Source of the DNA: Candidatus Eiseniibacteriota bacterium
Lineage (GTDB): Bacteria > Orphanbacterota > Orphanbacteria > Orphanbacterales > Orphanbacteraceae
DNA length: 29,635 bases
Direction of reading: 5' to 3'
Assembly: GCA_024276995.1 (NCBI GenBank)
Contig: JAJRWB010000020.1
Location: 1 to 29,635 of the forward strand
Under the pieces are notes generated by a model. It made no database searches and was not told the DNA's origin. It saw only the letters and a list, made by a program, of their open reading frames with translations. The translations under genes were made by a program, and so were the position numbers. Positions 2,616 through 26,333 of this stretch are shown piece by piece. How positions within the stretch are numbered: the first letter of the stretch is position 1; each line of letters starts with the position of its first letter.

Positions 2616-2618
2616 CGC

Positions 2619-3759: not shown

Positions 3760-3795
3760 GCCGATCTCCGGGGGCGGGCCCGTTTCACGCCTCGC

Positions 3796-5139: not shown

Positions 5140-5173
5140 GAATCAGGTCTTCCCGTGCGGCCTTTTGTTACGC

Positions 5174-6597: not shown

Positions 6598-6611
6598 CGC
6601 CCTTCGCCGGT

Positions 6612-7943: not shown

Positions 7944-7949
7944 GAGAGG

Positions 7950-9316: not shown

Positions 9317-9397
9317 GAGCGCGGGGGGTTCTCCATCAAGGGCGTCGACGAGCCATGTCCAATGGAGATCGAGCGCGTCTTCGATGCGCGCGCGCCG

Positions 9398-9625: not shown

Positions 9626-9642
9626 CCGCCGTTCCCCCCGGT

Positions 9643-10443
9643 CTACTCTCCCCCGTCCGCCATCTCCGCTCCCCGGGCGGCGAGTTCCGATAGTTGCCCG
9701 GTGAGAGAGCGGTTCTTCATGAGAAGCACCGCGAGAAGAACGATCATCACGCCGCACAGCGCCGCGAGAGGGAGGAACCACGCCGTGCCGGTTGCAGCAC
9801 TCCTCGGAGGGTCGACCATTTTCGGCGTCACCCTCTTGGCGACCACGGTCACATGGTCCGCGCTGAGCCCCTCCACGCTGCTTGCCACGAGCTTCCTGAT
9901 ATCCATTTCATCGATCCGCTCTTCCGGCGGAACGCTCCCTTCGACCTTCCACTGCTTCACCATCACCGCGGCGGTCGCCCTCGGCGGCTCCTCTCCTTCC
10001 ATCACCTGCCGGAGGGGGTCCTTTTCCGGTATCGAAACGTGAACCCGCGCGTCGATCACCGACGGCATCGCCTCTATGGTCGCCGCGAGTTCGCCGCAGA
10101 GCGCCTGCAGAAAGAGAGCCTTCTCCTCGGTTTCGGTGGGGATCAGTTTCGATTTGCCGAAGAACTCGGCGAATCCCTTCGGTCTCTCGCGAGGCAGGTC
10201 GTTCTCCACGAGAACCTGCCACGCATCGCTCGCGTCGCCGGGCGCCACGGTGACGGTCCACGTTTTCTCCTGGCCGCTTTCGTTCGGGATCTTCTGGGCC
10301 GCGATGCCGTTATTCCTCAGAACGACGATCACCTCGGTGGCGGCCTCTTCCGAAAGCCCCGAGTGAAGCTCCATCGTGTTGCAGCCTGTGACGACGAGAA
10401 GAAAAAGCGCGGCCATGGCGATTCGGACGGTTCGTCTCTTCAT
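9643..10443 (-). CDS. sctJ: Inner-membrane ring lipoprotein SctJ (YscJ/PrgK/EscJ family)
   Basis: SctJ forms the periplasmic inner-membrane ring of injectisomes. The 266-aa product has a lipoprotein signal peptide with lipobox VVTGC (lipidated Cys21). Next come the family signature MELHSGLSEEAATEVIVVLR, a ring-building domain with VTVAPGDASDAWQVLVENDL then PRE, and the second domain with MPSVIDARVHVSIPEKDPL. A transmembrane segment lies at about residues 221-242 with a short cytoplasmic tail. This is the single best argument for a non-flagellar system, since flagella use the larger, non-lipidated FliF. Start ATG 10443 has GGGAG about 11 bases upstream; sctI ends 69 bases before it. Stop codon is TAG. 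Confidence 0.96.
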   Translation of the reverse strand: MKRRTVRIAMAALFLLVVTGCNTMELHSGLSEEAATEVIVVLRNNGIAAQKIPNESGQEKTWTVTVAPGDASDAWQVLVENDLPRERPKGFAEFFGKSKLIPTETEEKALFLQALCGELAATIEAMPSVIDARVHVSIPEKDPLRQVMEGEEPPRATAAVMVKQWKVEGSVPPEERIDEMDIRKLVASSVEGLSADHVTVVAKRVTPKMVDPPRSAATGTAWFLPLAALCGVMIVLLAVLLMKNRSLTGQLSELAARGAEMADGGE

Positions 10444-10512
10444 GCTTCCAATGACTCCCTCCCGGTCAGAGAACCAGACGAGAAGTTCGAGCCGGACCGA
10501 TCGACCGCCGGC

Positions 10513-11106
10513 CTAGACGTTCGTCTGGAAGATCGTCTTCATGCCGCTCACGCTCTGCTCCACCGCCTTGCTCAGCACCTCCGTACTCTGTGCGATCCGG
10601 TGCGCGCGGATCTGGATCGAGAGCAGTTCCTGGGCGGAGAATTTCTGTCCCGACGCCATCTTGTCGAGCACCGTCTCCAGGTTCCCATACTCTACGCCAA
10701 ACTCATCGAGGCGATCGACCATTTTGTCTTTCCACGCGCCTCCCTCCACGTTGGGCGATTGGCTCTTCATCTGGAGAAAGACCTCCTTCGATCGGCGGAT
10801 CCGGACGGCGAAGTAGCGAACCTGCTCCGGGCGGCTGAGCGGGGCGACCTTCGTGTCGAATTCCTGTTGGAGCTTCGCCTGCTCCGCCGGAGAGATCTGG
10901 TTGATCTGCGTCTTTACGTCGGTCTGGAGGACCTGTTTCGTCGCCTCGATTTCATCCGCGGGCGTCGCGCCCTTCTGTTTCATCACCTCGTCGAATTTCG
11001 ACGGCCCGGTCTTCTTCGCCCCACCCGCCTGCGAGGCGAGATCCCCACCCGCCTGGCCGATCTTGCGGATCGCGTCGCCGCCGGGGCCCTGTATCGGATC
11101 TGCCAT
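10513..11106 (-). CDS. sctI: Inner rod protein SctI (YscI/PrgJ/HrpB-like)
   Basis: SctI forms the inner rod or anchor of the needle and is an early export substrate. The 197-aa product lacks a signal peptide and is largely helical. The C-terminal 45 residues (FSAQELLSIQIRAHRIAQST, then a helix ending SGMKTIFQTNV) match the pattern of rod and needle subunits: LL-x-(L/I)-Q, a polar helix, and a Val-Ser-Gly-x-K segment. It is longer than typical SctI, with a Gly/Ala-rich N-terminus and a motif SKFDEVMKQKG (about 36-46) that recurs in SctP. I chose ATG 11106, preceded by GGGAG; the frame is open further upstream but lacks protein character there. It is the first structural gene after the sigma-factor gene. 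Confidence 0.8.
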   Translation of the reverse strand: MADPIQGPGGDAIRKIGQAGGDLASQAGGAKKTGPSKFDEVMKQKGATPADEIEATKQVLQTDVKTQINQISPAEQAKLQQEFDTKVAPLSRPEQVRYFAVRIRRSKEVFLQMKSQSPNVEGGAWKDKMVDRLDEFGVEYGNLETVLDKMASGQKFSAQELLSIQIRAHRIAQSTEVLSKAVEQSVSGMKTIFQTNV

Positions 11107-11246
11107 GATGAAAATCACTCCCTTCCGATGTGAACTCTTCCGCGGACGGGCCCTTCCCCTTGTTCCGCCCGGCCCGCGCCGCATCTTCGCCACCTTATCG
11201 CGCCCGGAACCGCCGCGGTTGCGTCCTTCTCGCGGTGTCCCAACGA

Positions 11247-11912
11247 TCAGGAAGGCGCCTCCAGGCCCTGTTCGCGGACGAGGGTGAGAAGCTTCTTGAG
11301 CGCCCTGGCGTGGAGGCGACATGTCCATGACTTCGAAAGACCGATCTTCGCCCCCGCCTCCTCCAAATTCAGATGGTTGAAGTAGTAGTCCTCGATCACC
11401 GAGCGCTCCTTCTCGTCGAGTTTCGCCACGCACGCTCTCATAACCAACGACAATTCAGCGACTTCCGTGACCTCATCCGGTAGCGCGCGCTCATCGGCGA
11501 GATCGATCGGCGCTTCGTCGCTGTTCAGCGAGAGGATCTTCGCCGCCGCGATTTTCTCGATGATGTCCTTCGTCTGTTCGATCTGCTCTTCGAGGGAAAT
11601 CATACGGTGACCAGCGGCGGTGCTCTCGGTCGACTCCCGAAGGAGTTCGTTCGATGCCGAATCGTAGGTGATTTCCCTATTGGCGGAACCGCGAAACCAC
11701 GACATCTTCCGGATGCCGTCGTAGATCGCACCCCTAATACGATAGTAAGCGAATGTTTTGAAAAGGATACCCCGCGAAGGATCGAAACGCCGACTCGCCT
11801 CGACGAGTCCGAGCCGGCCGAACGCGACGAGGTCGTCGATTTCGACGAAAGAGGGCAAAGAACGGAGCAGTTTCCGGGCAAGCGCCTCGACCAGCGGAAG
11901 ATGCTGATCCAC
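11247..11912 (-). CDS. FliA/WhiG-type alternative sigma factor
   Basis: The 221-aa product is a sigma-70-family factor of the FliA class. Region 2 spans about residues 1-75: LPLVEALARKLLRSLPSFVE, IDDLVAFGRLGLVEASRRFD then PSRGILFKTFAYYRIRGAIYDGIRK. Region 4 lies near the C-terminus (ERSVIEDYYFNHLNLEEAGA and a helix-turn-helix KIGLSKSWTCRLHARALKKL). FliA-type factors direct transcription of flagellar or, in chlamydiae, other late genes. Here it is the first gene before the type III operon and may control it or its substrates. Start is GTG 11912; an in-frame TAA two codons upstream limits the N-terminus, which is therefore short, and no clear ribosome site precedes it. A promoter is proposed at 12028-11998. 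Stop is TGA. Confidence 0.9.
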   Translation of the reverse strand: MDQHLPLVEALARKLLRSLPSFVEIDDLVAFGRLGLVEASRRFDPSRGILFKTFAYYRIRGAIYDGIRKMSWFRGSANREITYDSASNELLRESTESTAAGHRMISLEEQIEQTKDIIEKIAAAKILSLNSDEAPIDLADERALPDEVTEVAELSLVMRACVAKLDEKERSVIEDYYFNHLNLEEAGAKIGLSKSWTCRLHARALKKLLTLVREQGLEAPS

Positions 11913-12150: not shown

Positions 12151-12305
12151 CGTCCCTCATGTAAGAGAATTGCCGCTGCGGGACGAAAGCACAAGAAACT
12201 CTAAAGTCTAAACGGAATTTTGCACTCATAGTTGATTTTCGGGGGAAATCTTCGGAAATCGGAAGGGAGGTTTTGTCTGGGCATAAATGTTCCCGTGGGC
12301 CACGG
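12151..12305 (+). promoter_or_regulatory. Structured leader of the PPC-domain gene
   Basis: The predicted transcript begins with CGTCCC (12151-12156), which pairs with GGGACG (12180-12185) over a 23-base loop. A GATTT/AAATC repeat lies mid-leader and a perfect CCGTGG-G-CCACGG palindrome at 12293-12305. I recognise no known riboswitch. No gene is seen in the stretch from 11,913 to 12,366 apart from these regulatory elements. Confidence 0.35.
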
Positions 12306-12366
12306 TCTTCGCGGCCGGGCCATCGAATTTCGGCCATGTTCCGCACCAAACCATAGGGAAGACAAG

Positions 12367-13434
12367 ATGATGAAAAATGCTATCTTTCTTAGCGCAGCTC
12401 TGGTGTTGTGCGCCGGACTTGCTCCGGCATCCAATCCGCTGATCACCAACAATGTCCAGGATGTCATCGACGCCAAGAATGCCGCGATTACCCACAGCAC
12501 CCTCACACCGGGACTCCCCGTGGGCGGTGAGAATATCGCAAGCGCCACTCCGATTCCGGCCCTTCCTTTCCTCGATACCGGTGACACGGGACTCTACCTC
12601 AATGACTACGACGAAGCGTGCCCTTTCACCGGATCGACGGCCCCCGATGTGGTCTACTCGTTCACACCGACCGCGGATATATCGGTCAATATCAACCTTT
12701 GCGGTGAAGGAACTCAATACGACACCAAGGTTTACGTGTACGAGAACACCGTGGGCAACGTAGTGGGCTGCAACGACGATTTCTGCTCCAACAGCTGGAC
12801 GCCATACGCGTCGGCGATCGAATGCCTCCCGATGCTCGCCGGCAACACCTATTACATCGTGGTCGACGGCTATGGAACCGCATCAGGACCGTATGAACTG
12901 AGCGTCGCTGAATGTATTCCCCCCGAACCGTGCGATCCGACATGCCCTCCGAACGCTATGCTCGAGGGTGAAGCCGACTGTGCGGACGACCAGGACGACT
13001 TCTACAACGCCGGCTGCAACGGAACACCGAACACCTTCACCGATCTGCCGTGCGATGCCGATCCGAAGGTGGTTTGCGGCACATCCGGCAATTACCTGTT
13101 CGGCGGCGTGGAGTATCGGGACACCGACTGGTACCGGATTTCCTGGCCCGGCGGAACTTTGAGGGCCTCCGTCTGTGCGGCATTCCCGCCGGCGCTCGCA
13201 ATTCTCGATGCCGTCTGTCCGGTGGTCAGCGACTACTGCTTCCAGACCGGCGTAGCGAACGAGGAGGTCGTCTGCGAAGTTCCCCTTTCGCCGGGTAACT
13301 ACTACATATTTGTTTCCACGGTTGATTTCGTGGGAACGGCCTGCGGCTCACCCTATACCCTGACGGTCAACGGATGTCCTGGAACGGCAACAGAAGGGAC
13401 ATCTTGGGGAGATGTGAAAGACCTCTTCCGATAG
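12367..13434 (+). CDS. Secreted protein with two PPC-like beta domains
   Basis: The 355-aa product has a signal peptide (residues 1-21, ending GLAPA) and is Cys- and acidic-rich. Residues about 85-190 and 230-340 each resemble bacterial pre-peptidase C-terminal (PPC) jelly-roll domains. The first has APDVVYSFTPTADISVNINL, YDTKVYVYE and NTYYIVVDGYG; the second has DWYRISWPGGTLRASVC and GNYYIFVSTVDF. PPC domains usually accompany secreted enzymes or bind surfaces; no catalytic domain is visible here. The C-terminus ends SWGDVKDLFR, unlike the FlgD-like sorting tails of the neighbouring genes, so it may use another export or anchoring route. I chose ATG 12367 because it directly precedes the signal peptide and follows AGGGAAG by about 8 bases. 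It converges on the cohesin/dockerin operon. Confidence 0.82.
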   Translation: MMKNAIFLSAALVLCAGLAPASNPLITNNVQDVIDAKNAAITHSTLTPGLPVGGENIASATPIPALPFLDTGDTGLYLNDYDEACPFTGSTAPDVVYSFTPTADISVNINLCGEGTQYDTKVYVYENTVGNVVGCNDDFCSNSWTPYASAIECLPMLAGNTYYIVVDGYGTASGPYELSVAECIPPEPCDPTCPPNAMLEGEADCADDQDDFYNAGCNGTPNTFTDLPCDADPKVVCGTSGNYLFGGVEYRDTDWYRISWPGGTLRASVCAAFPPALAILDAVCPVVSDYCFQTGVANEEVVCEVPLSPGNYYIFVSTVDFVGTACGSPYTLTVNGCPGTATEGTSWGDVKDLFR

Positions 13435-13612: not shown

Positions 13613-14452
13613 CTAGCGAACGAGGTAGACCTTGCGGGTAATCGTCCGGCCGGGGGCGTTCAACCTGTAGAAGTAAACCCCCGACACCACTTCTCTGCCC
13701 CGGGAATCCCTTCCGTCCCAGGTGATCTCGAAACTGCGCCCCGTCGGCCGTCCGGCGAGCGCCCTGAGAAGCCTTCCCCGAACATCGTAAATCGCCAGCA
13801 CCGACCTTTCTTCCCCGGCGGGACGGCCGAGCAGGACGGAACTCGCGCCGCGCGTGGGATTCGGGTAGGGCTTCCCGAGCTTCCATTCGCCGTCGATAAG
13901 GTCCGTTCCCCGCCCAATGCCGGTCGGGTCCCCCACATAGACCCCGCCGTTTTCCCAGGCGAGTGTGTCGAGGGGGAATCTCCGGATATTCTTGACGTTG
14001 ACCTCGACAAAGGAGAGGGGGGAGTATCCGCGCGCGATCGAATGGAACGTCAGGCGGGTCAGTTCACCGGGAGGAAGGACGTAGCTCATCGCGGGAAAGA
14101 TGACATCGAAGACCTGGTGCGTCCCCGAACTCTCCTCCCGGGTGAAGAACCACGTGTCGTCCGACTCGTAGGTATGCAGGTAGAGAGATCCTTCCACCGC
14201 CTGGACGAACTCGATCACCGACGGATCGAATTGAACATAGACCTGGTAGTTGGAAATCGTATCCACACCGCTGATCCACACTTGAACATCGAAGTCCTGG
14301 TTCGGGGCAACGACGGTTACGCTCGGCTGAAAAGCGGCCAGGGGTACGGCGCCGGCCGACCGGGGGAGAAAGAACAAGAGCAGAAGGATCGGCACCGACA
14401 GGGAACGTGGAAACCCGGCCCCCGGGCGATGATTTGTGCGAGTACTTTTCAT
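13613..14452 (-). CDS. Small secreted cohesin-like protein with FlgD-like sorting tail (third copy)
   Basis: The 279-aa product has a signal peptide (about residues 1-35, ending SAGA). A cohesin-like beta domain (about 40-175) carries VTVVAPNQDFDVQVWISGVD, NYQVYVQFDPSVIEFVQAVE and PPGELTRLTF. A C-terminal FlgD-Ig/type-A sorting-like module (about 190-279) starts PYPNPTRG, contains IYDVRGRLLRALAG and ITWDGRDSRG, and ends in Leu-Val-Arg. It is a clear paralogue of the proteins at 19100-19948 and 25357-26175. Cohesins bind dockerins; the large neighbouring proteins carry dockerin-like regions, so these small proteins could be cell-surface receptors or scaffold subunits. ATG 14452 follows GGGGGA. 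It is the last gene of the unit; stop is TAG. Confidence 0.85.
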   Translation of the reverse strand: MKSTRTNHRPGAGFPRSLSVPILLLLFFLPRSAGAVPLAAFQPSVTVVAPNQDFDVQVWISGVDTISNYQVYVQFDPSVIEFVQAVEGSLYLHTYESDDTWFFTREESSGTHQVFDVIFPAMSYVLPPGELTRLTFHSIARGYSPLSFVEVNVKNIRRFPLDTLAWENGGVYVGDPTGIGRGTDLIDGEWKLGKPYPNPTRGASSVLLGRPAGEERSVLAIYDVRGRLLRALAGRPTGRSFEITWDGRDSRGREVVSGVYFYRLNAPGRTITRKVYLVR

Positions 14453-14486
14453 GTGTATCCCCCGTCGCCGGTTTCATTGGTTGCCG

Positions 14487-14511
14487 GGGCGGGGGGAAGC
14501 GCCCCCCGCCC
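14487..14511 (-). promoter_or_regulatory. Strong intercistronic hairpin after the 1482-aa gene
   Basis: A perfect 10-bp all-GC stem (GGGCGGGGGG/CCCCCCGCCC) with a 5-base loop starts 15 bases after the giant gene's stop and before the next small gene. No T-run follows on the minus strand, so it is more likely an mRNA-stability or partial-termination element than a full terminator. Confidence 0.6.
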
Positions 14512-14525
14512 ACTTTAATCTCAAT

Positions 14526-17500
14526 CTATTTTATCATAATGATCTTGGCGGTGGATCGGTATTCTCCGGCCCTCATCCGGACGAAATACGCGCCTGTTCC
14601 GGCCTGCCGGCCGTTGTTGTCCGCCCCGTTCCAAGCTTCGGCGTAACTCCCCGCTTCCCGGCTTCGATCGACGAGGGTGCGGACGAGACGGCCGTTGGTA
14701 TCGAACACCTCGATCAGCACCCGCTCCGCCCGTTTCAGTTCGTACCGAACCGTGGTGGTCGGGTTGAACGGATTGGGCCATGCGCCTGAAAGCCGGGTCA
14801 CCGACGGGATCGTCCCGTCCGCGACGTCATACGCCAACTCGGTGGTGCCCATGCGGATCTCGTCGTTGGCGACTCCCCGGGCCGTCACTTCGTCGAACCG
14901 AACCGTCAGGTCGCCCTTGTCCAGGATCCTGAATTGAAGCGTGGCCACCTCGCCGGAACCATGAATCGTCTCGTCCCGTCCGAGGACGGCGAAGTCGATG
15001 CCGATTTCGCCCGGCACGACTTCCTTTCCCCAGAAGAAGGCGAATGCGTTGTCGGTGCCCATCGCCCGGTTCGGCGTGATGCCGATCAGCTCCAGGTTCT
15101 CCCGGCTATAGCTCAGACGCATGGAGGCGCCCTTCACCTCGTCGTCGTTTCCGCTCAACACGACGTTCACCGCAAACACCTGCCCCACGCCCGCCGGGGC
15201 CTCGGGGGAGAGGAGCGAGAGTGCCGGGATTCCCGCCTTGGCGGCATCGCCCGCCAGCCGCACGCGGGGACCCTTGCAGGCGGAACAGACCACGTTGAAA
15301 TTCATCGCGAAGATGATGAGATCCTCGAAATCGACGATATCGTCCGGTCCCGGGATTCCCAGCCGGCTTCCATCGTCCGTGGGACCGACATCGCATTCGT
15401 TCTGCGGCCACGGAGGCGTGGATATGGTATACGCGGCGCTCAGTACGCTGATATCGTCGAAGTCGACGTCGCCGTCATAGTCGCCGCCGCCCGGTCCCGT
15501 ATCGGCGTCCACGTCGCCGAGCCAGTAATTCGTGGAGCGATCCTGCGCGCTCGACGCCGCGGGGCCGTAATTCAAGGCCTGATCGAAGGCGAAGGCGGTG
15601 TAGTAGTAGATATCGCGGGCGACGATGTTGTGGTCGTCTCCCGTCGGCACGCCGAGCTGATTCGACGCTTCGCCGTCGCCGGCGTTTTCGTCGGCGGGAT
15701 ACGCTCCCAGGACCGCGTATTCGGGGTAATCCACACCGCCGTCATAGCGGACCACCACGCCGTAGGGGTAAAGATCCAGTCCAGACGGATCGTCCCACGA
15801 CAGGGCCACGCGCTCATGGTGCGTCGCCGCCGCGAAGCCGGTGATCGCGCCGGGCGGCGTGTTGTCCGCGATGATCGCATCGCTTCCGGACGCCGTGTTG
15901 CCCACGCCGTCGATGACCGTCACGGTCACGTTCTTCGAACCATCGGACGTGAGCGTTACGTTCTGCAAAGCCACGGTCCATGTGGCCACGTTGGCGGCGT
16001 AGCTTTCCGCCTGAACCGCCGCACCGCCGGCGGCGAGCAGCGCCGAGAGATCGGCCGTGATGTCGGACGCTCCAAGAGGACCGTCGTCCGTGACGGTGGC
16101 GGTCAGTTTCAGATTGTCGGTGTCCTTCGCGTAATCGTCGGTATGGGCGAGCGTCAGGTTCTCGATCAGAACGTTCGTCACCACCGGATCGGAGACATCG
16201 ACCACCAGCAGACCATCATCGGCCTCGAACCCGCTCAGCGGACCGTTCGCGCTGTCCCGAACCGCGACCACCGTGAGATCGACCGGGCTCGTCCCCTGGG
16301 AGAGACCGGTGAAGGTGATACTGAACATCGTGCCGGGACCACTCACGCCCGATTGCGCTCCTAGAAGGGCGCAGTCGACGGTGATTTCGTCGGCGCCGCT
16401 TGAATACGTGAAAAAGCGGGTCGAAGCCTGGTCGGAAAGGAGCGACCCTTCCACCACGCTTCCCGGAACGGTGCTCGCGATCGTGCCGTCCCATGAGAAT
16501 TTCAGCGAGTAACCGTAGAGGAGACCGCTCCCGCCGCCGAGGTACTTCACGTCCACCGTCTTTACCGGGGACGCAACGGAAAGCGTCTCCGGATCGGCGA
16601 CCACGATGATGTTCCCCGTGAACCACGGATCGTAGTCGATGTTGTCGCTTACCGCGTTACCGAGGCCGCCCGGGTTGTAAAGCCCGCCGCTTCCCGTGTC
16701 ATCGCTGTTGTCGAGAGGACCGGCGGCGTCGCCCCACCAGTTTGACTCGGCCATCAGCGGTCCCCCGATCGCGCTGCTTGTTGCCGATCCCGCGGGGGCA
16801 TCGCTGATCCATGCACCGAACGTGCTGTTCCCACTGATCGTATTGTTGTAAATCGAACCGGAAGGCACGTAGCACGCCATGTTGACATCGACAGCCACAT
16901 ACCCGGGAATATAGATTCCCTCGTTGTTCCCGGTGATCACGTTGTCATGGATATCCACGGTCCATGGAGTGACGCTCCATGCCTGGAGACCCTGGCCTTC
17001 GTCACCCTGCGCCGGAACGCCGGTGATCGTGTTATCGAACACGGTGAGGTCGGAAACATTGTTGACTTCGATGCCGGCCCAGATCCAGCCACCGCCGCCG
17101 GAGTTATCCACCCAGCCGGTCATCGTGTTCCCGCTGATCACGGCACTTGCGGTCGGCTCGTCCAGCTTCCCGCGGAATGCGATCGAACCGCCGAGCCCGG
17201 TTACCGTGTTATTCGTGAACACCACGGACGTCAGGGCGACACCCGGATAGTTGCTGCTTCCGGTATTGTCGATAACATACCAGGAGCGGAAATCCCTGAT
17301 CGTGTTGTTGTCCCAGGTCCATGTGCCCGCCACGCGACCCGTGCGGCCGTAGAAGCAGTAGCGATTCGTCGCTTCTCCGTCGAGCACACAATTCCGGAGC
17401 GTAATGTCGGTCACGACGCCGCCGGGGATCATGTCGATCACCGAGTTGTGGCCCCCCGCGGGAGAATCGCCGGTCAGCGTGAAGCCATCGATGGTAACGC

Positions 17501-18974
17501 CTGTGAACGTTCCCGACCCGAAGACGATTCCGCCGGAAAGAAACGTGCTCGACGCACCCGACCCGAGGAGGGTGAGGCCTTGGTTGATGAGCAGCGACGC
17601 CGGATACGTCCCCGGCGCCACGTTCACCGTGCTGCCGGTCACCGCATCGATCCCCTCCTGAACCGTGGCGAAGGCGGTGTAGCCCCATACATAGTTCGTG
17701 CCGTTGGCGGTGTTGTACAGATCCACGTCCGCCTGGCCGGTGAAATCGTCGTCCACCACCACATCGGTCACGTCGTTGGTGGTGAAGTAGAGACCGGAAG
17801 AGTTTTCACCTGCGATCTCGGGGTAATGGTTGCCGGAACTGTAGACCCATCCCCCGCTCGGATCCTGTGTCGCACCGGTCCAGTATCCCATCCGGTTGAT
17901 TTCGTCCTGATACGTCGCCTGGCCGAGGTTCCCCAGCGTCATCATCGCGTACGCCGTCGACTGCCAGTCTTCGTCGTCCGTGTTGGCGCCATAGCTGAAG
18001 CTGATCGCGCCCGTCGAGAATTGGCCGGCAAGGAGCCTCGATACGAGGCCGGGAATCTCGGAAGCGTACTTGTCGGCCGCGGCGAAACCGTCGATCAGCC
18101 CCGTGATACCGAGGTTGTACCACCAGAAGTTCTTGTCGGTGTACGTCGGATCCCACCCGGCGTCGGCGACGACGTCGAACAGGCCGGGATTACCGTTGAA
18201 CGAATCCTCCCAGAGCGTGTCCGCCACGGCATCCGCATCGGTATCGTACCCGTTCCCCGGATAGAGGGCGTCGAGCATGGCCGCCGCGCGGGCCCATACG
18301 CCGATATCCCAGCCGATGATACCGTTCGGATAGCCCTGCGTGACGCCGCGGACATCACGAATGTAGGCCGCGAGCGCGCCGGCCGAACCGTAAGTCAGGA
18401 TGCGGCCGTCATATTTCGCCCTCGCCGAATCCCGATACGTCGTCCCGCTCACGCCGGGCAGCGCGTTGTAAAGCATCAGAAAAACGAGGTCCGCCCCCGA
18501 TCGGATTCCCGCATCGGCGGCCATGGCGTTCGCGGCGTCGGTCATGGCGGTGAAGAGAGAAGCATCGCCCGACTCGAGGTACGCATAGTAGATTCCCAGC
18601 GCCGATACGCCGTAGATATTCGGCGGACTCGCGCCGGTAGTGTGGAAGAACGGCTGGGCGGGAGTGTTCACCACCCAGTCCCATCCGCCGTCATCGGGAT
18701 CATCGGGCGTTTCGTCAACGCCGTTTACACCGTTCCCGGCATTGTCGTCCGTAACATCCGCCTGCATCTGTCGCAGGTAGCCGGCGCCCGCCTGAAGACT
18801 CGCATCGAAATCGACAGGATCGCCCAGGGCGTTGAGCGGCAGCCGGATCTCCTCCGGCCCCCCCGGAACCGCCTGGGACGGCGCGACCCTCTCGTCCACC
18901 GGCGCCACCGGCGAAGCGAGCGCCATGCCCGCACAGATCGCCGTTGCGACGATCAGCGTCAATGATTTTCTCAT
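14526..18974 (-). CDS. Giant secreted protein: alpha/alpha-toroid-like, beta-helix, cohesin-, dockerin-like and sorting domains
   Basis: The 1482-aa product begins with a signal peptide (1-20, MALA/SP). Residues about 55-390 are helical and Trp/Gly-rich with repeats ending DPSGGWVYSSGNHYPEI, resembling the alpha/alpha-toroid of terpene-cyclase-like or polysaccharide lyase-like proteins. A right-handed parallel beta-helix follows (about 430-785, opening with VQEGIDAVTGSTVNVAPGTY). Next come a cohesin-like domain (793-925), an Ig-like domain (930-1037), a fibronectin-III-like domain (1040-1140) and a dockerin-like region (1150-1230, NYWLGDVDAD ... GDYDGDVDFDD ... DIVDFEDLIIFAMNF). A second cohesin-like domain (1250-1380) and the FlgD-like sorting tail (1395-1482, PNPFNPTTTVRYEL, final IIMIK) close the protein. 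ATG 18974 follows GGAGGAAG. The C-terminal 700 residues are paralogous to the 1749-aa protein. Substrate unknown; carbohydrate binding or cleavage is a guess. Confidence 0.88.
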   Translation of the reverse strand: MRKSLTLIVATAICAGMALASPVAPVDERVAPSQAVPGGPEEIRLPLNALGDPVDFDASLQAGAGYLRQMQADVTDDNAGNGVNGVDETPDDPDDGGWDWVVNTPAQPFFHTTGASPPNIYGVSALGIYYAYLESGDASLFTAMTDAANAMAADAGIRSGADLVFLMLYNALPGVSGTTYRDSARAKYDGRILTYGSAGALAAYIRDVRGVTQGYPNGIIGWDIGVWARAAAMLDALYPGNGYDTDADAVADTLWEDSFNGNPGLFDVVADAGWDPTYTDKNFWWYNLGITGLIDGFAAADKYASEIPGLVSRLLAGQFSTGAISFSYGANTDDEDWQSTAYAMMTLGNLGQATYQDEINRMGYWTGATQDPSGGWVYSSGNHYPEIAGENSSGLYFTTNDVTDVVVDDDFTGQADVDLYNTANGTNYVWGYTAFATVQEGIDAVTGSTVNVAPGTYPASLLINQGLTLLGSGASSTFLSGGIVFGSGTFTGVTIDGFTLTGDSPAGGHNSVIDMIPGGVVTDITLRNCVLDGEATNRYCFYGRTGRVAGTWTWDNNTIRDFRSWYVIDNTGSSNYPGVALTSVVFTNNTVTGLGGSIAFRGKLDEPTASAVISGNTMTGWVDNSGGGGWIWAGIEVNNVSDLTVFDNTITGVPAQGDEGQGLQAWSVTPWTVDIHDNVITGNNEGIYIPGYVAVDVNMACYVPSGSIYNNTISGNSTFGAWISDAPAGSATSSAIGGPLMAESNWWGDAAGPLDNSDDTGSGGLYNPGGLGNAVSDNIDYDPWFTGNIIVVADPETLSVASPVKTVDVKYLGGGSGLLYGYSLKFSWDGTIASTVPGSVVEGSLLSDQASTRFFTYSSGADEITVDCALLGAQSGVSGPGTMFSITFTGLSQGTSPVDLTVVAVRDSANGPLSGFEADDGLLVVDVSDPVVTNVLIENLTLAHTDDYAKDTDNLKLTATVTDDGPLGASDITADLSALLAAGGAAVQAESYAANVATWTVALQNVTLTSDGSKNVTVTVIDGVGNTASGSDAIIADNTPPGAITGFAAATHHERVALSWDDPSGLDLYPYGVVVRYDGGVDYPEYAVLGAYPADENAGDGEASNQLGVPTGDDHNIVARDIYYYTAFAFDQALNYGPAASSAQDRSTNYWLGDVDADTGPGGGDYDGDVDFDDISVLSAAYTISTPPWPQNECDVGPTDDGSRLGIPGPDDIVDFEDLIIFAMNFNVVCSACKGPRVRLAGDAAKAGIPALSLLSPEAPAGVGQVFAVNVVLSGNDDEVKGASMRLSYSRENLELIGITPNRAMGTDNAFAFFWGKEVVPGEIGIDFAVLGRDETIHGSGEVATLQFRILDKGDLTVRFDEVTARGVANDEIRMGTTELAYDVADGTIPSVTRLSGAWPNPFNPTTTVRYELKRAERVLIEVFDTNGRLVRTLVDRSREAGSYAEAWNGADNNGRQAGTGAYFVRMRAGEYRSTAKIIMIK

Positions 18975-19099
18975 GACGTTCTTCCTCCATCTGCTTGTGG
19001 GAGCTGTTTACGGATGCCGGGAAGGCGGTCCGTTCGAAGAGATCGTTATCAAGTCGCTTGTTTCTCCTCCTTCGCCGCCTGTTGCGGACACGGCGCGAA

Positions 19100-19948
19100 T
19101 CAGCGAACCACGATCACTTTCCGCGAGATCGATTCGCCGGCGGTCTCGAGCCGGAAAAAATAGACCCCCGGTGAAACCTCCGCGCCCTTGTCATCTCTTC
19201 CGTCCCAGAACAGCTCTGACGCCGCGGCGATCGGCACGCTCTCCAGGTTCCGAACAAGCCGTCCCGAAAGATCGAACACGCCGAACACGAAAGAACCGGA
19301 CAGATCCGACGGCAGACGGCGGAAAGTGATCCGTGACTCTCCCCGGGCCGGGTTCGGACGGGGATTCCCCAGCACCCAACCGCGATCGATCACCGTTCCG
19401 CCGGGAATCCCCGTGGACGCCGAGCCCACGGCGATGGTTCCGTCGGCGGTCTTGGTATCGGGAAGGGAGTCGCGGTTGATGTCCGCCACGAGCGGGACGG
19501 CGATGAAATGAAGAGGGGAAATGCCGTCCGCCAGAGCCCGGAAGCGGACTGTCGCGAGTTCTCCGGGGGGCAGAATGAAACTGAGCGCGGGGAAGATCAC
19601 GTCGTAAACTTCCACCGTGCCCGGAGATGATTCGAGGTACCCGAACCACGTCTGGTTGCCTGTCGATGTGTAGAGCGACCCTTCGAGGGCCGTCTGGAAT
19701 TCGATCACCGCGGGGTCGTACTCGAAGATCACATGGAACGTGGAGACCGTGTCCACCCCCGCATCGATTCCGATTACGACGTCGAACACGTTCGCCGGAT
19801 CGACAAGAGTGACCCGCGGTTCGAAGGAGACTAGAGCACCCGCCGGGGAGGGCGATGCCCGCAGAAGGGCGAGGCCGAGTAAGAGCACGATAATCCCCGC
19901 CCGGACGGCCGGTTCCCTTGTCGCGATTCCTCCGATCAAACCGGGCAT
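19100..19948 (-). CDS. Small secreted cohesin-like protein with FlgD-like sorting tail (second copy)
   Basis: From ATG 19948 the product is 282 aa: a signal peptide (hydrophobic core GIIVLLLGLALL, then SPAGA), a cohesin-like domain (about residues 40-170, with VFDVVIGIDAGVDTVSTFHV, FEYDPAVIEFQTALEGSLYT and PPGELATVRFRAL) and a sorting-like module (about 190-282, PRPNPARG, VFDLSGRLVRNL, LFWDGRDDKG, final VIVVR). I prefer 19948 over the upstream ATG at 20005, which overlaps the previous stop by one base. The former has a GGAG site at 6-7 bases, gives a proper signal peptide, and leaves the strong hairpin at 19965-19994 as non-coding. Stop is TGA. It is followed after 125 bases by the 1482-aa gene. 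Confidence 0.82.
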   Translation of the reverse strand: MPGLIGGIATREPAVRAGIIVLLLGLALLRASPSPAGALVSFEPRVTLVDPANVFDVVIGIDAGVDTVSTFHVIFEYDPAVIEFQTALEGSLYTSTGNQTWFGYLESSPGTVEVYDVIFPALSFILPPGELATVRFRALADGISPLHFIAVPLVADINRDSLPDTKTADGTIAVGSASTGIPGGTVIDRGWVLGNPRPNPARGESRITFRRLPSDLSGSFVFGVFDLSGRLVRNLESVPIAAASELFWDGRDDKGAEVSPGVYFFRLETAGESISRKVIVVR

Positions 19949-19964
19949 TCGAAACTCCGTAAGC

Positions 19965-19994
19965 GGCCTCCGGCGATCTTCACCGCCGGAGGCC
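19965..19994 (-). promoter_or_regulatory. Strong intercistronic hairpin after the 1749-aa gene
   Basis: A perfect 11-bp stem (GGCCTCCGGCG and its complement) with an 8-base loop begins 10 bases after the TAA of the giant gene. It sits immediately upstream of the ribosome site of the next gene and has no T-run. It mirrors the hairpin at 14487-14511 in placement. Confidence 0.65.
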
Positions 19995-20004
19995 GTAATC
20001 GACA

Positions 20005-23000
20005 TTACTTCAACAACACGACCCGGGCGGTGCGACTGTAGGTGCCCGCCTCCATCCTGAGGAGATAGACGCCACTGCCGCTCGCCCGGCCGTCATTGTC
20101 ACGACCGTCCCACGAATCGGCGTAACGACCCGCCGGGCGCTGCTCGTCCACCAGGTTTCGCACGAGACGTCCCCCGACATCGTAGATGCCGATGGTTACA
20201 TGCTGTGACGCGCTCAACTCGAAGTGGATCGCCGTCGTCGGGTTGAACGGGTTCGGCACGGCACCGACAAGACGGGTCACCGACGGAACCGTGCCGCCGT
20301 TCGACAGCGCCAGGCCGGTTACGGTAACGGTGAGGTCTTCGTTCCCCACGCCGCGAAGGCGCACATCACCGAAACGGAGATCGATATGGTCCCCGGTGCC
20401 GGCCGCCCGGAACGTGAGCACGGCGATCTCGCCCGATCCATGGATCGTCCGCTCCATGCCGAGGGCGGAAAGGTCGACCCTCGCGTCTCCCCGTGAGACC
20501 CGGTCGCCCATGAAGAAGGAACCGCCTCCCGCCAGCGCATCGCTCGGACGGGCACCGACGAACTCGAGGGTATTCTCATCGAAGAGCACTTCCACACTCG
20601 CCCCCTTCACCTCGTCCACGTTCCCGTCCAGGATCAGGCTCGCCGTGAAGAATCCCTCGTCGTCGAGACTCCCTTCGAGCCGGAGCGTCGGAGAAGCGGC
20701 CTCCGTCTTCCCCGCCAGAATCACCTGGGGCGTTCTCTTGCCCGCAGGGCCGACGACGCCGTAATTCATCGCGAAGATGATCAGATCCTCGAAGTCGACC
20801 ACGTCATCGGGAAGGGGAAGCCCCGTGCGGCTGAAATCATCGGTGGGACCCACATCACAACTGTTATCCCAGCTACCGCCTCCCTCGGTCTGCCAGTAGG
20901 TGGCCGAAAGAGTGCTGATATCCCCCACCCAGACCAGGCCGTCGGAACCGGTCACGTCGCCGAGCCAGTAGTTCGTTGTGCGATCGCCCTGGGCGAACGC
21001 GGCGGGAATGTTTCCGGTCGGTAACGTGCCGCCCGTCCAGTTGCCCGCGCAGTCGTGAGCGAATGCGTGATAGAAGTAGATCGAACGGTCGGTCAGCGAA
21101 TCGACGAAAGCCTCCGCCGTTCCCGAGTAGACCACCGTCCCGTCCGCCGGGTTCGCCGGATACCCGGCCGCCGCCTGCAGGGCGGGCAACGAGTAGTAGT
21201 CGGGATAGCTGAACGGACTTGCCGCGCTCCACGCCTTCCGCACGACGACCACATGGTCGAAGTCGCCCCCCGGATTCGTCCAGGAGAGGTGGGTCTTGCC
21301 GTTCCCCGTGGTCGCGGTGAAGCCGCTGACCGGCGAGGGCGGCGTCGTATCCTTGATGAAATCCCACGAAACGGCGGCGCTCACGTTTCCAAAATCATCG
21401 GTGCAGTAGAGATTCACCGTGTGGGTGCCCTCACTGAGAGCGCCGAACCCGGGCAGTGTCCACGCCGCGTTCAACCACGTCGACCCCGCAAGGTTCGTGA
21501 AGAGCCCGGCATCCGACTGCCATCCCCCTCCATCGTAGTTGTAGAAGGCGTCGTCCAGGTCACCGCACACCGCGTCCGCCGAAAGATCGAGGCTCGGCGC
21601 GGAGGCCTGGCAGAGGCTGTCGGGCCACGGGTTACTCACCGTGATCGTCGGAAGCCCCGGGTCGACATAGAGGAGGCCGTCGTCCTCGAAGAAACCGCCG
21701 AGAGGCTGGTTGCTGTTATCCCTCACCGCGTTGATCGTCACGTCGATAACACTCGTATCGCATGCAAGCCCGGTGAACGCGATCGTGAAGAGCGTCCCCG
21801 GCCCGGTAACACCCGGCTGCGCCCCGAGAAGCGCCGCGTTCACGGTGATCGAGTTGCCCCCCTGCTGCTTGAAGAACTGCGCCGATCCCTGGTCGCTGAG
21901 CAGATCCCCCTCGATCACCTGCGCCGCGCTCGTGGTAACGGCCGCACCGTCCCAGGAGAAAGAGATGTTGTAGCCGTACATCAGGCCGCCGCCGCCGCCG
22001 AGATAGTCGACCGAAACGGTCTTCGTCGGATTCGTCATCGTAAGTGTCTCCGGATCGGGCACGATAATGATGTTCCCCGTGTACCAGGGATCGAAAAGGA
22101 CGTCATCCGTCACGCCGACCCCCAGTCCGGACGGGTTCGCCAGCGGATGGAGCGGACCGCTCGGATCGCCCCACCAGTTGCTGCGGGCGTCGACGAGGAT
22201 GCCCGTCACATTCCGAATGCCGTAACCGTCGGTGCCGCTCGGCCCGAGATTCGTAAAACTGTTCGTCCTGATGAGAACGGAGGCGGCGGAAGCGTTGTCT
22301 TCCACCTGGATCGCCGCCGCATCCGACGGAGTCTTGTGATCGAGAAGATTGCCGATCACGTTCCCCTGGACGAGCGCATCGGGGGTATTCCCTTCCAAGC
22401 CGATGCCGTGCGACCAGAGCCCGTCGAGATCATCGATGACATTGTTCAAGATCTGCGGCGCCACGGTCCGACCGGTCACTCCCGTTCCGTGGTTGATCAG
22501 GATCCCGTATGCTCCGTGTCCCACGGGCCAGGCGCTCGTATCCCCCAGGACGTGGGAGATACTGTTGTCCTGGATCAGAAGGCCGGTGATCGGTTCCGAC
22601 CCGGAAGACCAGCCGACGGAGATCGCCGACACGCTCTTGTTCGCGCCTCCCGTGATGTTGCTGATCTCGTTTCTCTCGATCGTGACATCCGCCACGGGTG
22701 AGGCCGAAGAGACGATGGTGATCGCGTGAATCGCGAGACCCGCGGTGCCGTTCCCGACGCTGGTCAGCACGTTGTCGCGGATCGCGATCGTGCTGCGATC
22801 GGCGGCGTAGATCGCGCTCGATCCGGTCGGATTCGTGATCGTGAACCCGGAGATCGTGACGCTGTCGCTGTTCAGCGTCACCGCGGACCCGCCCGCACCG
22901 GCGAGGGTCGTGCTTCCGGCGCCCGCTCCCACGAGATCGACCGCCTTCGTGGCGACGATGTTGCCGGGATACGTTCCGGCCGCCACATTCACCGTGCTGC

Positions 23001-25254
23001 CTGAAACGAGATCGATTCCTTCCTGGATACGGCTCGCCGCGCCGCTCTGCGGGCTGTCGTCGTCCACGCTCAGGACGCTGAAGTCGCCGGAGAATCCGGG
23101 CATGTTGTACGTGCCGTCGTTGCCCATCCAAGGGGTGTAATCAACCGATCCGAGAATGGTCTCGCCCACGAGAAGGGTGCTCGTGTTCGCGTCGACGCGC
23201 GGCCGGCTGCCGGCGTGAGAGGGAAGATCTTCGCCGAAAGGCTGAACGAGTGGAGCGATCGATCGCCGGCCGCCCGCGAACGGCGTTCCCTGGACCGGCC
23301 CGGTTCCGTCGCCCCACCAGCATCCGGACGCATTGATCATCTGCGTCGGGAACTGGTTGTTGATGGCGGAGCCCGCATTGCCGCTGAAGGAGCAGTCGGA
23401 AACGTCGAAAGCGCTCACCGTGTTGGCGTTGCCCGAAAGGTCCGCGGTCCAGATTCCGTCGAGCGCGGCGCCGTTGATATTGCAGCCGCTGATATCGACG
23501 CTCAGGTTCCCATTGTTCCAGCCCGTATAGTAACCGCCCCCCCACGGGTCGATGCCCGAGCCCCACACGTCGATGCCGTCGCCGGCGGAGGCCAGGATGT
23601 CGCACCCGGCGATCGTGATATTCGGATCGCTGTTGTCGCGGCTCAGTTGCGCGCCGAGTGTCCACGTATTGCCGTGGAGATTCAGGTCGGTGAACGTGAG
23701 ATTGACGGGTGAGGGGTTATTGTAGACCCAGCCCCAGTCGCTGAAATTGACGCCGCTTTCGCAGTTGAAAACCTCGTCTCCCGTCATGGCGATATCGCCC
23801 GACTCGAAAAGGAGGATTCCCGTTCCCGCCCAGTCGCTGCCCGTGAAGCCGACACCCTCGACAACATTGCCCGACGTGGTGCCGGAGGCCCCGTAACTGA
23901 GCTGGATACCGTTCCCGGCGATCGCCGAAGAAGGGATCGTGGAGACCGTGTTGCTGTCCACCGTGAATGTCGCGCCCGGCCCCATGATCAGAATTCCACC
24001 CTTCTGGAATTCGGGGATCGTGTTGCCGGAAAAATCGATGTCGATCGTGGAGGCGACGCCGTGGGTCGCCGCCAGGCTGACCACCCGCTGTGTGCCGGGC
24101 GCCGCCGAGTACGTGACATTCTCGATGCACGAGTTCGTCACCGACCCGCTCGTGTTGAACAGGAAGATACCGTAGAAGTTGTTCGCCCCCAGATCGAGGC
24201 CGTCGACGGTAATGCCGGAAATGTTCACCGTGCCGGCATCGTTCACGCCGATGCACGCATCGACGGTCCGCACCGAACTGTTCCACTGGGTTATGTCGAA
24301 CGTCGTCCTGGAGACGAGAGGCACCGCCTGGATGACGGTCGACCCACATCCCGCGCCGACCAGGTCCACGCTCTTATCGATGTAAAGCTGCTCGACGTAA
24401 GTGCCCGCAAGGATGTTCACCGTGCTGCCGGCGACGGCATCGATACCGTCCTGGATCACGTTGAACGCGTCGAACTGCCAGGTGAGGTTCGGATCATAAA
24501 GATCGACGTCCGCCTGGCTGTTCCAATCATCGTCCACATATACCGTGACCGGCGCTCCGCCGGCGCCGATGATCACCTGGATCGTCGTGCTGGCGACGAG
24601 GTTATTCGCGCCGTCGTATGCGTTCAGATAGATGTCGTACGTTCCGTCAATCGTCGGGTCATAGGTGAGAGTCGGATGAATCGGAAAGAATGCGTGTCTC
24701 CACGATTGCTGGCACACATTGTTGTTCGCGATCAGGCCGGCATAGGTGGCGGAATCGGCCGCTTCCGTTCCCGCGCCGTTCAGCGTGAAGTTATCCCCGA
24801 TGCTGTGATCGAAGAACGCGGCGTTCAGCGGCGGGGCGTTGGGCGTGATCGGATCGAACTCCAGAAAATCGGTCCCCTGGCTCGGATCGAAATCGATGCC
24901 CAGTCGATACGTGAAATCGTCGATCTTCATTCCCGACGAACCGGGGAAGTCGGTATTGACCGTCCAGTCGAAGTTCCATCTCTGCGACGGATCGGCGGCG
25001 AGAAGTTCGGCAAGCGTGTAGCTGTACGTGCCGTCGCCGTTGCTGTGAATCACACCGGTGTACGGGATCTTGGCGCGAATACCAAGCTCGACTCCGCCTC
25101 CCTGGTCAACCGTAAAGTATCCGTTGCTGTTGCCGCTCCCGAAGATCACGTCGGGTGTCACGTTCGCGTCGAACGTGAGGGCATCGGCCGTCCCGGCACA
25201 CATCATCACGGCCAGCAGGCCGACCACAGACATCATTCCCGCATTCATTCTCAT
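20005..25254 (-). CDS. Giant secreted protein: two beta-helices, cohesin-, dockerin-like and sorting domains
   Basis: The 1749-aa product has a signal peptide (1-25, ending GTADA) and an N-terminal beta-rich domain of unknown family (26-235). A first beta-helix (about 237-715) and a second (about 725-1055) follow, each introduced by a VDDD...IQ(D/E)GID...GSTVN motif. A cohesin-like domain spans 1063-1198 (PDPETLTMTNPTKTVSVDYL), then an Ig-like domain (1200-1302) and a fibronectin-III-like domain (1303-1420). The dockerin-like region (1427-1500) has TNYWLGDVTGSDGL and CDVGPTDDFSRTG, then DDVVDFEDLIIFAMNYG. A second cohesin-like domain (1510-1650) and the sorting tail (1660-1749, PNPFNPTTAIHFEL, final VVLLK) end it. 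Having both cohesin-like and dockerin-like parts, it could polymerise or cross-link. ATG 25254 is preceded by AGAGGAAAGG at some distance; the next in-frame ATG is two codons in. Stop is TAA. Confidence 0.88.
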   Translation of the reverse strand: MRMNAGMMSVVGLLAVMMCAGTADALTFDANVTPDVIFGSGNSNGYFTVDQGGGVELGIRAKIPYTGVIHSNGDGTYSYTLAELLAADPSQRWNFDWTVNTDFPGSSGMKIDDFTYRLGIDFDPSQGTDFLEFDPITPNAPPLNAAFFDHSIGDNFTLNGAGTEAADSATYAGLIANNNVCQQSWRHAFFPIHPTLTYDPTIDGTYDIYLNAYDGANNLVASTTIQVIIGAGGAPVTVYVDDDWNSQADVDLYDPNLTWQFDAFNVIQDGIDAVAGSTVNILAGTYVEQLYIDKSVDLVGAGCGSTVIQAVPLVSRTTFDITQWNSSVRTVDACIGVNDAGTVNISGITVDGLDLGANNFYGIFLFNTSGSVTNSCIENVTYSAAPGTQRVVSLAATHGVASTIDIDFSGNTIPEFQKGGILIMGPGATFTVDSNTVSTIPSSAIAGNGIQLSYGASGTTSGNVVEGVGFTGSDWAGTGILLFESGDIAMTGDEVFNCESGVNFSDWGWVYNNPSPVNLTFTDLNLHGNTWTLGAQLSRDNSDPNITIAGCDILASAGDGIDVWGSGIDPWGGGYYTGWNNGNLSVDISGCNINGAALDGIWTADLSGNANTVSAFDVSDCSFSGNAGSAINNQFPTQMINASGCWWGDGTGPVQGTPFAGGRRSIAPLVQPFGEDLPSHAGSRPRVDANTSTLLVGETILGSVDYTPWMGNDGTYNMPGFSGDFSVLSVDDDSPQSGAASRIQEGIDLVSGSTVNVAAGTYPGNIVATKAVDLVGAGAGSTTLAGAGGSAVTLNSDSVTISGFTITNPTGSSAIYAADRSTIAIRDNVLTSVGNGTAGLAIHAITIVSSASPVADVTIERNEISNITGGANKSVSAISVGWSSGSEPITGLLIQDNSISHVLGDTSAWPVGHGAYGILINHGTGVTGRTVAPQILNNVIDDLDGLWSHGIGLEGNTPDALVQGNVIGNLLDHKTPSDAAAIQVEDNASAASVLIRTNSFTNLGPSGTDGYGIRNVTGILVDARSNWWGDPSGPLHPLANPSGLGVGVTDDVLFDPWYTGNIIIVPDPETLTMTNPTKTVSVDYLGGGGGLMYGYNISFSWDGAAVTTSAAQVIEGDLLSDQGSAQFFKQQGGNSITVNAALLGAQPGVTGPGTLFTIAFTGLACDTSVIDVTINAVRDNSNQPLGGFFEDDGLLYVDPGLPTITVSNPWPDSLCQASAPSLDLSADAVCGDLDDAFYNYDGGGWQSDAGLFTNLAGSTWLNAAWTLPGFGALSEGTHTVNLYCTDDFGNVSAAVSWDFIKDTTPPSPVSGFTATTGNGKTHLSWTNPGGDFDHVVVVRKAWSAASPFSYPDYYSLPALQAAAGYPANPADGTVVYSGTAEAFVDSLTDRSIYFYHAFAHDCAGNWTGGTLPTGNIPAAFAQGDRTTNYWLGDVTGSDGLVWVGDISTLSATYWQTEGGGSWDNSCDVGPTDDFSRTGLPLPDDVVDFEDLIIFAMNYGVVGPAGKRTPQVILAGKTEAASPTLRLEGSLDDEGFFTASLILDGNVDEVKGASVEVLFDENTLEFVGARPSDALAGGGSFFMGDRVSRGDARVDLSALGMERTIHGSGEIAVLTFRAAGTGDHIDLRFGDVRLRGVGNEDLTVTVTGLALSNGGTVPSVTRLVGAVPNPFNPTTAIHFELSASQHVTIGIYDVGGRLVRNLVDEQRPAGRYADSWDGRDNDGRASGSGVYLLRMEAGTYSRTARVVLLK

Positions 25255-25290
25255 GATTCTCAGCCTTTCCTCTCGGGTTTTCGGATCACA

Positions 25291-25316
25291 GGCGATTTCG
25301 ATATGCGAAAAGCGCC
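25291..25316 (-). promoter_or_regulatory. Imperfect intercistronic hairpin before the 1749-aa gene
   Basis: GGCG and TTTCG on one side pair with CGAAA and CGCC on the other, with a small internal mismatch and an ATATG loop. It lies between the first small gene and the first giant gene. It is weaker than the hairpins behind the giant genes. Confidence 0.3.
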
Positions 25317-25356
25317 TCCCGCGGCAGACACCGCCGAAGCCGCAACAGGTAACGAA

Positions 25357-26175
25357 TCAGCGAAGGAGGACGATCTTTCGCGAAATCAGACGGCCCGCTC
25401 CTTCAAGGCGGATGAAGTACGCTCCCGAACACACCGCGACTCCCCGGTCATCGCGGCCGTCCCACGCCAACCGGACATTCCCCCCTCCCGCGCCGGGATC
25501 GAGAACACGAATGCGTCGTCCGGCGATGTCGAATACGCCGAGCCGACAGAGTGCCCCGTCGCTTCTTCCGGTCCGGTAAAGCATGATTTCCGTCGAACCG
25601 GCCGCGGGATTCGGGAACGGCGCCCCAAGATCCCAGCCCCCCCACGGGATTTCCGCCGGACCGACCGATACGACATCTCCTACGAGGATGACGCCGCTTT
25701 CGATGGAAAGCGGCTCGATCGGATACCGGCCGATATCCTTGATCGAACAGGTGAGGATCGTCACGGGTGAGTATCCGACGCTCAATGCATGGAAATGCAG
25801 GCGGCAAAGCTCCCCCGGCGCGAGAACGAAGCTCTCGGCGGGGAAAATGACATCGAAAACCTGCCATGTTCCGAGCGATTCCTCGGTGGATTCGAACCAG
25901 CTGAAATCGCCGTAACCTTGATAGAGCGACCCTTGAACCACTTCCATCAGCTCTACCACGGTAGGGTCGAACTGTAAAATAACATTGTAATTGGAAATCG
26001 TGTCCGCTTCGGCGCTGACTCTCACATCAATGAAGAACAGATCACCCGGTTGTACGGAAGAGGTGGCGGGTGTGACCGTGACGGCGGGAATCGCCGCCGC
26101 GGCACAAGGCGATAGTACGGATACCAGGAGAAGCAGCGCCGCGCATCGAAACTGGGAGATAACCGATGTGTGCAT
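25357..26175 (-). CDS. Small secreted cohesin-like protein with FlgD-like sorting tail (first copy)
   Basis: The 272-aa product has a signal peptide (about 1-28, ending AAAA), a cohesin-like domain (about 30-165) and a FlgD-like/type-A sorting-like module (about 180-272). The cohesin-like part has DLFFIDVRVSAEADTISNYN, LQFDPTVVELMEVVQGSLYQ and PGELCRLHFHAL; the tail has PFPNPAAGSTEIML, VFDIAGRRIRVLD, LAWDGRDDRG and final VLLR. It is the promoter-proximal gene of the unit, paralogous to the small genes at 19100 and 13613. The ATG at 26175 has no convincing Shine-Dalgarno sequence. It probably serves as a surface-anchored dockerin receptor; the binding specificity cannot be read from sequence. 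Confidence 0.85.
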   Translation of the reverse strand: MHTSVISQFRCAALLLLVSVLSPCAAAAIPAVTVTPATSSVQPGDLFFIDVRVSAEADTISNYNVILQFDPTVVELMEVVQGSLYQGYGDFSWFESTEESLGTWQVFDVIFPAESFVLAPGELCRLHFHALSVGYSPVTILTCSIKDIGRYPIEPLSIESGVILVGDVVSVGPAEIPWGGWDLGAPFPNPAAGSTEIMLYRTGRSDGALCRLGVFDIAGRRIRVLDPGAGGGNVRLAWDGRDDRGVAVCSGAYFIRLEGAGRLISRKIVLLR

Positions 26176-26304: not shown

Positions 26305-26333
26305 ATAATAGCACCGTCGATACTTTGTGTCAA
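26305..26333 (-). promoter_or_regulatory. Near-consensus promoter of the cohesin/dockerin operon
   Basis: On the minus strand, a perfect TTGACA (26328-26333) and TATTAT (26305-26310, 5 of 6) are exactly 17 bases apart. Transcription should start near 26,298, about 120 bases before the first ATG. Apart from this promoter and its overlapping palindrome, the 337-base gap (26,176-26,512) holds only the ribosome site of the divergent hydrolase gene and no gene that I can see. Confidence 0.75.

Follow-up and report, generated by a model that had tools for sequence, protein, structure and literature searches.

Small cohesin-like proteins alternate with giant cohesin- and dockerin-like proteins carrying T9SS tails in an uncultured bacterium

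Introduction

Cohesins and dockerins are the snap-together parts that hold cellulosomes together. In the stretch of DNA analysed here (29,635 nucleotides, referred to as the window), small proteins with a single cohesin-like domain alternate with giants that carry both cohesin-like and dockerin-like modules. This raises the question of which module binds which, and whether such proteins could build a chained or cross-linked complex on the cell surface, as the initial annotation had proposed. Such a complex appears plausible.

Organization of the gene row

On the minus strand, read from 26175 to 13613, five open reading frames alternate in the order small-giant-small-giant-small, with coordinates, lengths and strand exactly as initially annotated. 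The features are given in gene order, with domain positions in residues; coh1 and coh2 denote the two cohesin-like domains of each giant, dock the dockerin-like module, and T9SS the type IX secretion system.

26305-26333, minus strand: promoter-like site TTGACA-17-TATTAT (11/12, TG before the second hexamer), about 130 bp upstream of P0005; the count of such sites in the region is not above that in shuffles, and the site is a lead only
25357-26175, minus strand: P0005, small cohesin protein 1, 272 aa; Pfam Cohesin 27.9 bits, TIGR04183 24.6 bits; signal-like N-terminus, one cohesin (~32-166), T9SS tail (~183-272)
20005-25254, minus strand: P0004, giant 1, 1749 aa, from domain map and profile matches; N-terminal domain, beta-helix-like region, coh1 (1061-1198), Ig/FN3-like, dock (1424-1503), coh2 (1513-1648), T9SS tail (1662-1749)
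19100-20005, minus strand: P0003, small cohesin protein 2, 301 aa; Pfam Cohesin 25.6 bits, TIGR04183 28.3 bits; one cohesin (59-194), T9SS tail (212-301)
14526-18974, minus strand: P0002, giant 2, 1482 aa, from domain map, profile matches and a model of dock+coh2; N-terminal domain, beta-helix (~551-726), coh1 (788-927), Ig/FN3-like, dock (1144-1231), coh2 (1240-1380), T9SS tail (1395-1482)
13613-14452, minus strand: P0001, small cohesin protein 3, 279 aa, also modeled; Pfam Cohesin 27.7 bits, TIGR04183 33.7 bits; one cohesin (40-174), T9SS tail (192-279)

The intergenic gaps measure 102, -1, 125 and 73 bp in gene order, and the start codon of P0003 overlaps the stop codon of P0004 in the sequence TAATG. 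The shared strand, the short gaps and the single promoter-like site are consistent with co-transcription of the five genes. Terminator-like sites in the region are no commoner than in shuffles, and none of the RNA families searched across the window was found. A perfect 10-bp G+C hairpin lies at 14487-14511, in the gap between P0002 and P0001.

The paralogues within the window are 39-49% identical, as distant from each other as proteins from other genera. A recent tandem duplication was considered as the source of the alternation and not retained, the trees of both the small cohesins and the dock+coh2 units being unresolved.

Downstream of the cluster, at 443-11912 on the minus strand, lie genes that appear to be of the flagellar/export type, judged from their translations alone. 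They include an FlhB-like gene (443-1513), a FliI-like ATPase (6612-7943) and a sigma-factor-like gene (11247-11912), all on the minus strand.

Cohesin folds in the small proteins and the giants

In each small protein, a single cohesin lies between a signal-like N-terminus and a tail of T9SS type A. In the domain map, P0001, P0003 and P0005 are stand-alone (autonomous) cohesins, made up of cohesin and sorting tail only. All three exceed the Pfam Cohesin (PF00963) cut-off of 24.1 bits, which bears out their initial description as cohesin-like, and with E values up to 1 the same profile matches 8 of 10 small cohesins. The AlphaFold model of P0001 (pLDDT 91, pTM 0.85) has a cohesin fold; its top Foldseek ranks are all solved cohesins (E 5e-12), and comparison with the solved cohesin 5nrm gives a VIA Z of 17.9 and an rmsd of 1.8 over 133 residues.

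The two giants are 44% identical across their last 774 residues, while their upstream parts differ. More specifically, they share a C-terminal cassette of coh1, an Ig/FN3-like region, dock, coh2 and a T9SS tail, in which dock and coh2 are always neighbours. Both kinds of module expected in the giants were recovered in this way, with two cohesin-like domains per giant instead of one; coh1 is the weaker. The pre-tail cohesin, coh2 of P0002, lies above the Pfam cut-off (31.8 bits in the genome search, 30.4 bits in another search), and 16 of the 22 dock+coh2 relatives are matched by Pfam Cohesin with E values up to 1. In the AlphaFold model of dock+coh2 from P0002 (pLDDT 83, pTM 0.84), the coh2 part aligns to solved cohesins with a VIA Z of 17.3 and an rmsd of 2.6 over 138 residues, and solved cohesins again fill the top Foldseek ranks (E 8e-11). 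Structure prediction, which had been named as a check, has thus yielded solved cohesins as the best matches of both models. Furthermore, sequence profiles reach PDB cohesins, at E 1.5e-7 in one search and 7e-4 in another. The predicted cohesin folds of the small protein and coh2 can be regarded as firm. For coh1, profile-profile comparison with the small cohesins gives a probability of 97% (E 2.3e-11, 126 columns), and a sequence search of the PDB matched no cohesin.

Across the 3.76-Mb genome only four cohesins score above the Pfam cut-off. All four fall inside the window, so the cluster is not a product of chance.

The reading of the giants as beta-helix proteins has modest support. P0002 matches Pfam Beta_helix with 24.9 bits (cut-off 25.9) and P0004 matches NosD at E 1.1e-12, yet under the cut-off of that profile. 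The N-terminal domain and beta-helix region of P0002 matched no PDB sequence. No enzyme domain was recognized in the five window proteins by profile search.

A remote dockerin relative in the giants

The dockerin-like modules of the two giants differ in the state of their loops:

15282-15545, minus strand: dockerin-like module of P0002 (1144-1231), two EF-like loops with insertions and a helix after each
20746-20988, minus strand: dockerin-like module of P0004 (1424-1503), second loop intact, first degenerate

Even with E values up to 1 allowed, none of the 22 relatives is matched by Pfam Dockerin type I (PF00404), a miss that the insertions in both loops may account for. When the profile of the module was compared with the PDB, four chains were matched up to E 10, and all of them are dockerins (4wi0, 4u3s, 4fl4, 2y3n), with matches that are individually weak (E 0.016-0.29). 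An aspartate is invariant at the start and the end of both loops in the alignment of relatives, across phyla, and the dock+coh2 model places one helix behind each loop (32-41 and 76-84). Based on profile search, conservation and model, we describe the module as dockerin-like, a remote relative of dockerins with insertions in both EF-type loops. The initial assignment therefore stands on the PDB profile, the paired acidic residues and the two helices, but not on a Pfam match. No significant profile match was found between this module and the FFDTFQ-type dockerin-like modules located elsewhere in the genome.

T9SS tails and predicted export

All five cluster proteins pass TIGR04183, the NCBIfam model of the T9SS type A tail (24.6-33.7 bits, cut-off 23 bits). 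The genome also encodes SprA (516 bits in total) and PorU (546.6 bits), so that tails above the cut-off, as in T9SS type A cargo, occur together with translocon and sortase. Surface export of the cluster proteins by T9SS is thereby supported at the level of sequence. The common sorting tails noted at the outset are confirmed in all five proteins, but they are not special to the cluster; about 100 proteins of the genome carry one, so tails are what would be expected of surface proteins of this organism, and they were discarded as a distinguishing trait.

Conservation of the giant-small adjacency

Among relatives that carry a name, the nearest are for the most part MAGs under the title Candidatus Eisenbacteria. 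Seven genomes of the phylum were examined. Five contain giants with the dockerin-like module, the same five contain full-scoring small cohesins, and every one of these small cohesins adjoins such a giant. The other two genomes (G002 and G003) have neither, G003 showing weak cohesin matches. One genome (G006) repeats the order small-giant-small-giant, G004 and OFTM309 have the order giant-small, and RS_13_32 has giant-small-giant-giant.

A giant with an adjacent single-cohesin protein was also found in the distant genomes G031, G007 and G009 and in Calditrichaeota contigs. The anchors of these distant small cohesins vary: a T9SS tail (L095), a WGxxKxxYR-type motif (L091, L092), a lipobox-like N-terminus (L096, L098), or no recognized anchor (L035, L036). 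In G031, the single-cohesin proteins beside the giants (L091 2515-3072, L092 3453-4010) carry the WGxxKxxYR-type end in place of the T9SS tail. Two others (L096 360-1211 and L098 3585-4187, minus strand) have the lipobox-like N-termini LITC and TASC, which suggests lipoprotein anchoring.

Counted from the domain map, 19 of 35 giants with the dockerin-like module adjoin a small cohesin. Many of the remaining 16 are truncated by contig ends, and four that are complete lack a small neighbour (L025, L026, L028, L033). Giant-small pairing is frequent, not obligatory.

The N-terminal payloads vary among giants. Beta-helix/NosD regions occur in several, and others carry an LVIVD propeller plus lamin-tail domain, DUF7901, AAT or FG-GAP/ASPIC. 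In Candidatus Eisenbacteria RS_13_32, one giant (L021 7214-12003) combines the same C-terminal cassette with two GH5-type domains, in which NEP and EEFG motifs are present.

Further dockerin-type proteins in the genome

Additional dockerin-type proteins are encoded outside the window. On contig C65 of the same genome (L015 2381-5767), a metalloprotease-like protein of 1128 aa ends in a dockerin-like module and has no T9SS tail. The next gene (5788-6555) encodes a 255-aa cohesin-like protein with a T9SS tail, whose Pfam Cohesin score of 22.2 bits is just below the cut-off. Two dockerin giants with T9SS tails (L016, L017) each have a lipoprotein upstream. The L016 lipoprotein has a sub-threshold Cohesin match (20.3 bits), and the L017 lipoprotein is its homologue (E 4e-14). 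The latter, of 373 aa, was not accepted as a cohesin, the link running via L016 homology with no direct profile support.

Possible modes of assembly

We give an even chance to an arrangement in which surface proteins exported by T9SS assemble via cohesin-dockerin contacts, and the small cohesin is the cognate partner of the dockerin of its neighbour giant. T9SS would deliver all five proteins to the cell surface, where a giant would present a variable N-terminal payload (here beta-helices) on its conserved C-terminal cassette. Each small protein would be a stand-alone cohesin that brings its own surface anchor. Its most likely role would be to receive, anchor or cap the dockerin of the giant next to it, and the cohesins within the giants could bind additional dockerins, by which the assembly would grow. 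That the dockerin-like module binds the small cohesin, and not coh1 or coh2, would best explain the adjacency with exchangeable anchors; the tail-less dockerin protease followed by a tailed cohesin supports the same pairing idea. The payloads would then act jointly at the surface. Several observations speak against this arrangement. The giants carry tails of their own and would need no small protein for anchoring, the dockerin-like module is without a Pfam match, with weak PDB matches and a degenerate first repeat in P0004, and there are the complete giants without a small neighbour.

A serious rival, because of the pTM of 0.84, is that the dockerin-like module binds the following cohesin in its own chain. 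The pTM suggests that dock and coh2 have a defined relative arrangement, in keeping with their constant adjacency in the cassette. Such a unit would stand as a stiff stalk or spacer ahead of the T9SS tail, no chains would result, and the small cohesins would have another partner or a separate role. We hold this to be rather unlikely, since it leaves unexplained both the lone cohesin gene beside a giant, in 5/5 family genomes and in distant ones, and the tailed cohesin that follows a dockerin protease without a tail.

It is more doubtful that the modules have drifted away from pairing altogether, so that the cohesin-like domains bind glycans or act as beta-sandwich spacers and the dockerin-like module is a degenerate calcium-stabilized linker. 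The missing Pfam dockerin match, the degenerate loop 1 in P0004 and the failure of the coh1 sequence to find a PDB cohesin would fit such drift, whereas the acidic residues that stay invariant across phyla at the two ends of each loop, the small cohesins and coh2 above Pfam cut-offs and the conserved adjacency of the two partners would not. Least probable, and in our estimate quite improbable, is a true cellulosome-like complex that degrades polysaccharide of plants or algae, with non-enzymatic members alone encoded in the window: the GH5-type domains on the same cassette in RS_13_32 point that way, but the five window proteins are free of recognized enzyme domains, the payloads in relatives are mixed, and no many-cohesin scaffoldin was seen.

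Returning to pairing between neighbours, a further possibility, put forward tentatively, is a scaffoldin-free, self-assembling surface lattice. Giants, with one dockerin and two cohesins each, could chain together, and stand-alone cohesins could start or cap the chains through exchangeable anchors; it is equally tentative that these anchors are the T9SS tail, the lipobox or the new WGxxKxxFR C-terminal motif described below.

Relation to known cohesin-dockerin systems

To place the locus among known systems, we compared it with five of them. The clostridial cellulosome (CipA, ScaA/ScaB) shares the cohesin fold and a remote dockerin homology; unlike it, the window has neither a multi-cohesin scaffoldin nor a dockerin-bearing cellulase or other glycoside hydrolase. 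The cohesin enzymes of Clostridium perfringens belong to a Gram-positive organism and have dockerin partners of another kind. Here as in those single-cohesin glycoside hydrolases (PDB 2vo8, 2jh2, 2w1n, the last being cohesin plus FN3), a cohesin can sit in a large secreted non-cellulosomal protein. Ruminococcus flavefaciens ScaG (PDB 4n2o, 4wkz; Z ~13) is likewise a small protein with one cohesin as its main module, but it belongs to a clostridial-type cellulosome and has no T9SS tail or paired giant gene.

Closer precedents exist, and the initial statement that no such system had been described is too strong. In the Cloacimonadota (Ca. Stygibacter), a cellulosome-like complex has been proposed, consisting of dockerin enzymes and a cohesin scaffoldin whose C-terminal domain would attach it to the surface; the same paper cites a 'planctosome' (PMC8542988). 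The likeness lies in a Gram-negative setting, cohesin and dockerin proteins and a conserved C-terminal domain proposed for surface attachment of the scaffoldin. There, however, one scaffoldin of 3755 aa bears tandem cohesins and is served by several dockerin enzymes (PMC8542988), whereas here single-cohesin proteins alternate with cohesin+dockerin giants. ANME archaea have proteins with one dockerin and several cohesins (PMC9012536), and a cohesin/dockerin pair of Archaeoglobus fulgidus has been used as a binding pair (PMC9705933). These archaeal systems resemble the present one in being non-cellulosomal and in that a dockerin and cohesins can share one protein (PMC9012536), and one of the best structural matches of the P0001 and coh2 models is to 2xdh, a cohesin of A. 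fulgidus. They differ in being archaeal, without T9SS tails, and in having no described alternation with beta-helix giants. The layout here is new, while cohesin-dockerin assembly as such has precedents in Cloacimonadota, ANME archaea and Archaeoglobus. Among the papers searched, none dealt with Eisenbacteria in connection with cohesins or T9SS.

With this locus, cohesin-dockerin assembly would reach surface proteins delivered by T9SS in a little-studied bacterium of an uncultured phylum, in a conserved gene-pair layout free of a scaffoldin. If the pairs bind, they would provide new cohesin-dockerin pairs and a model for how these bacteria arrange their very large repertoires of T9SS cargo on the cell surface.

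A recurrent C-terminal motif

The C-terminal motif [ST]WGx[VIL]Kx[LM][FY]R-stop occurs in the window at 12232-13434 on the plus strand and at 21 other places in the same genome. Of these 22 matches, 21 end an open frame of at least 100 aa. About 18 of the motif proteins have a signal-like N-terminus, and none has a T9SS tail. Counts range from 11 to 41 per family genome and reach 44 in G031, compared with 2 in the 33 other genomes and 0 in the reversed control. The motif is covered by no NCBIfam model. WGxxKxxFR-stop is possibly a new sorting or anchoring signal.
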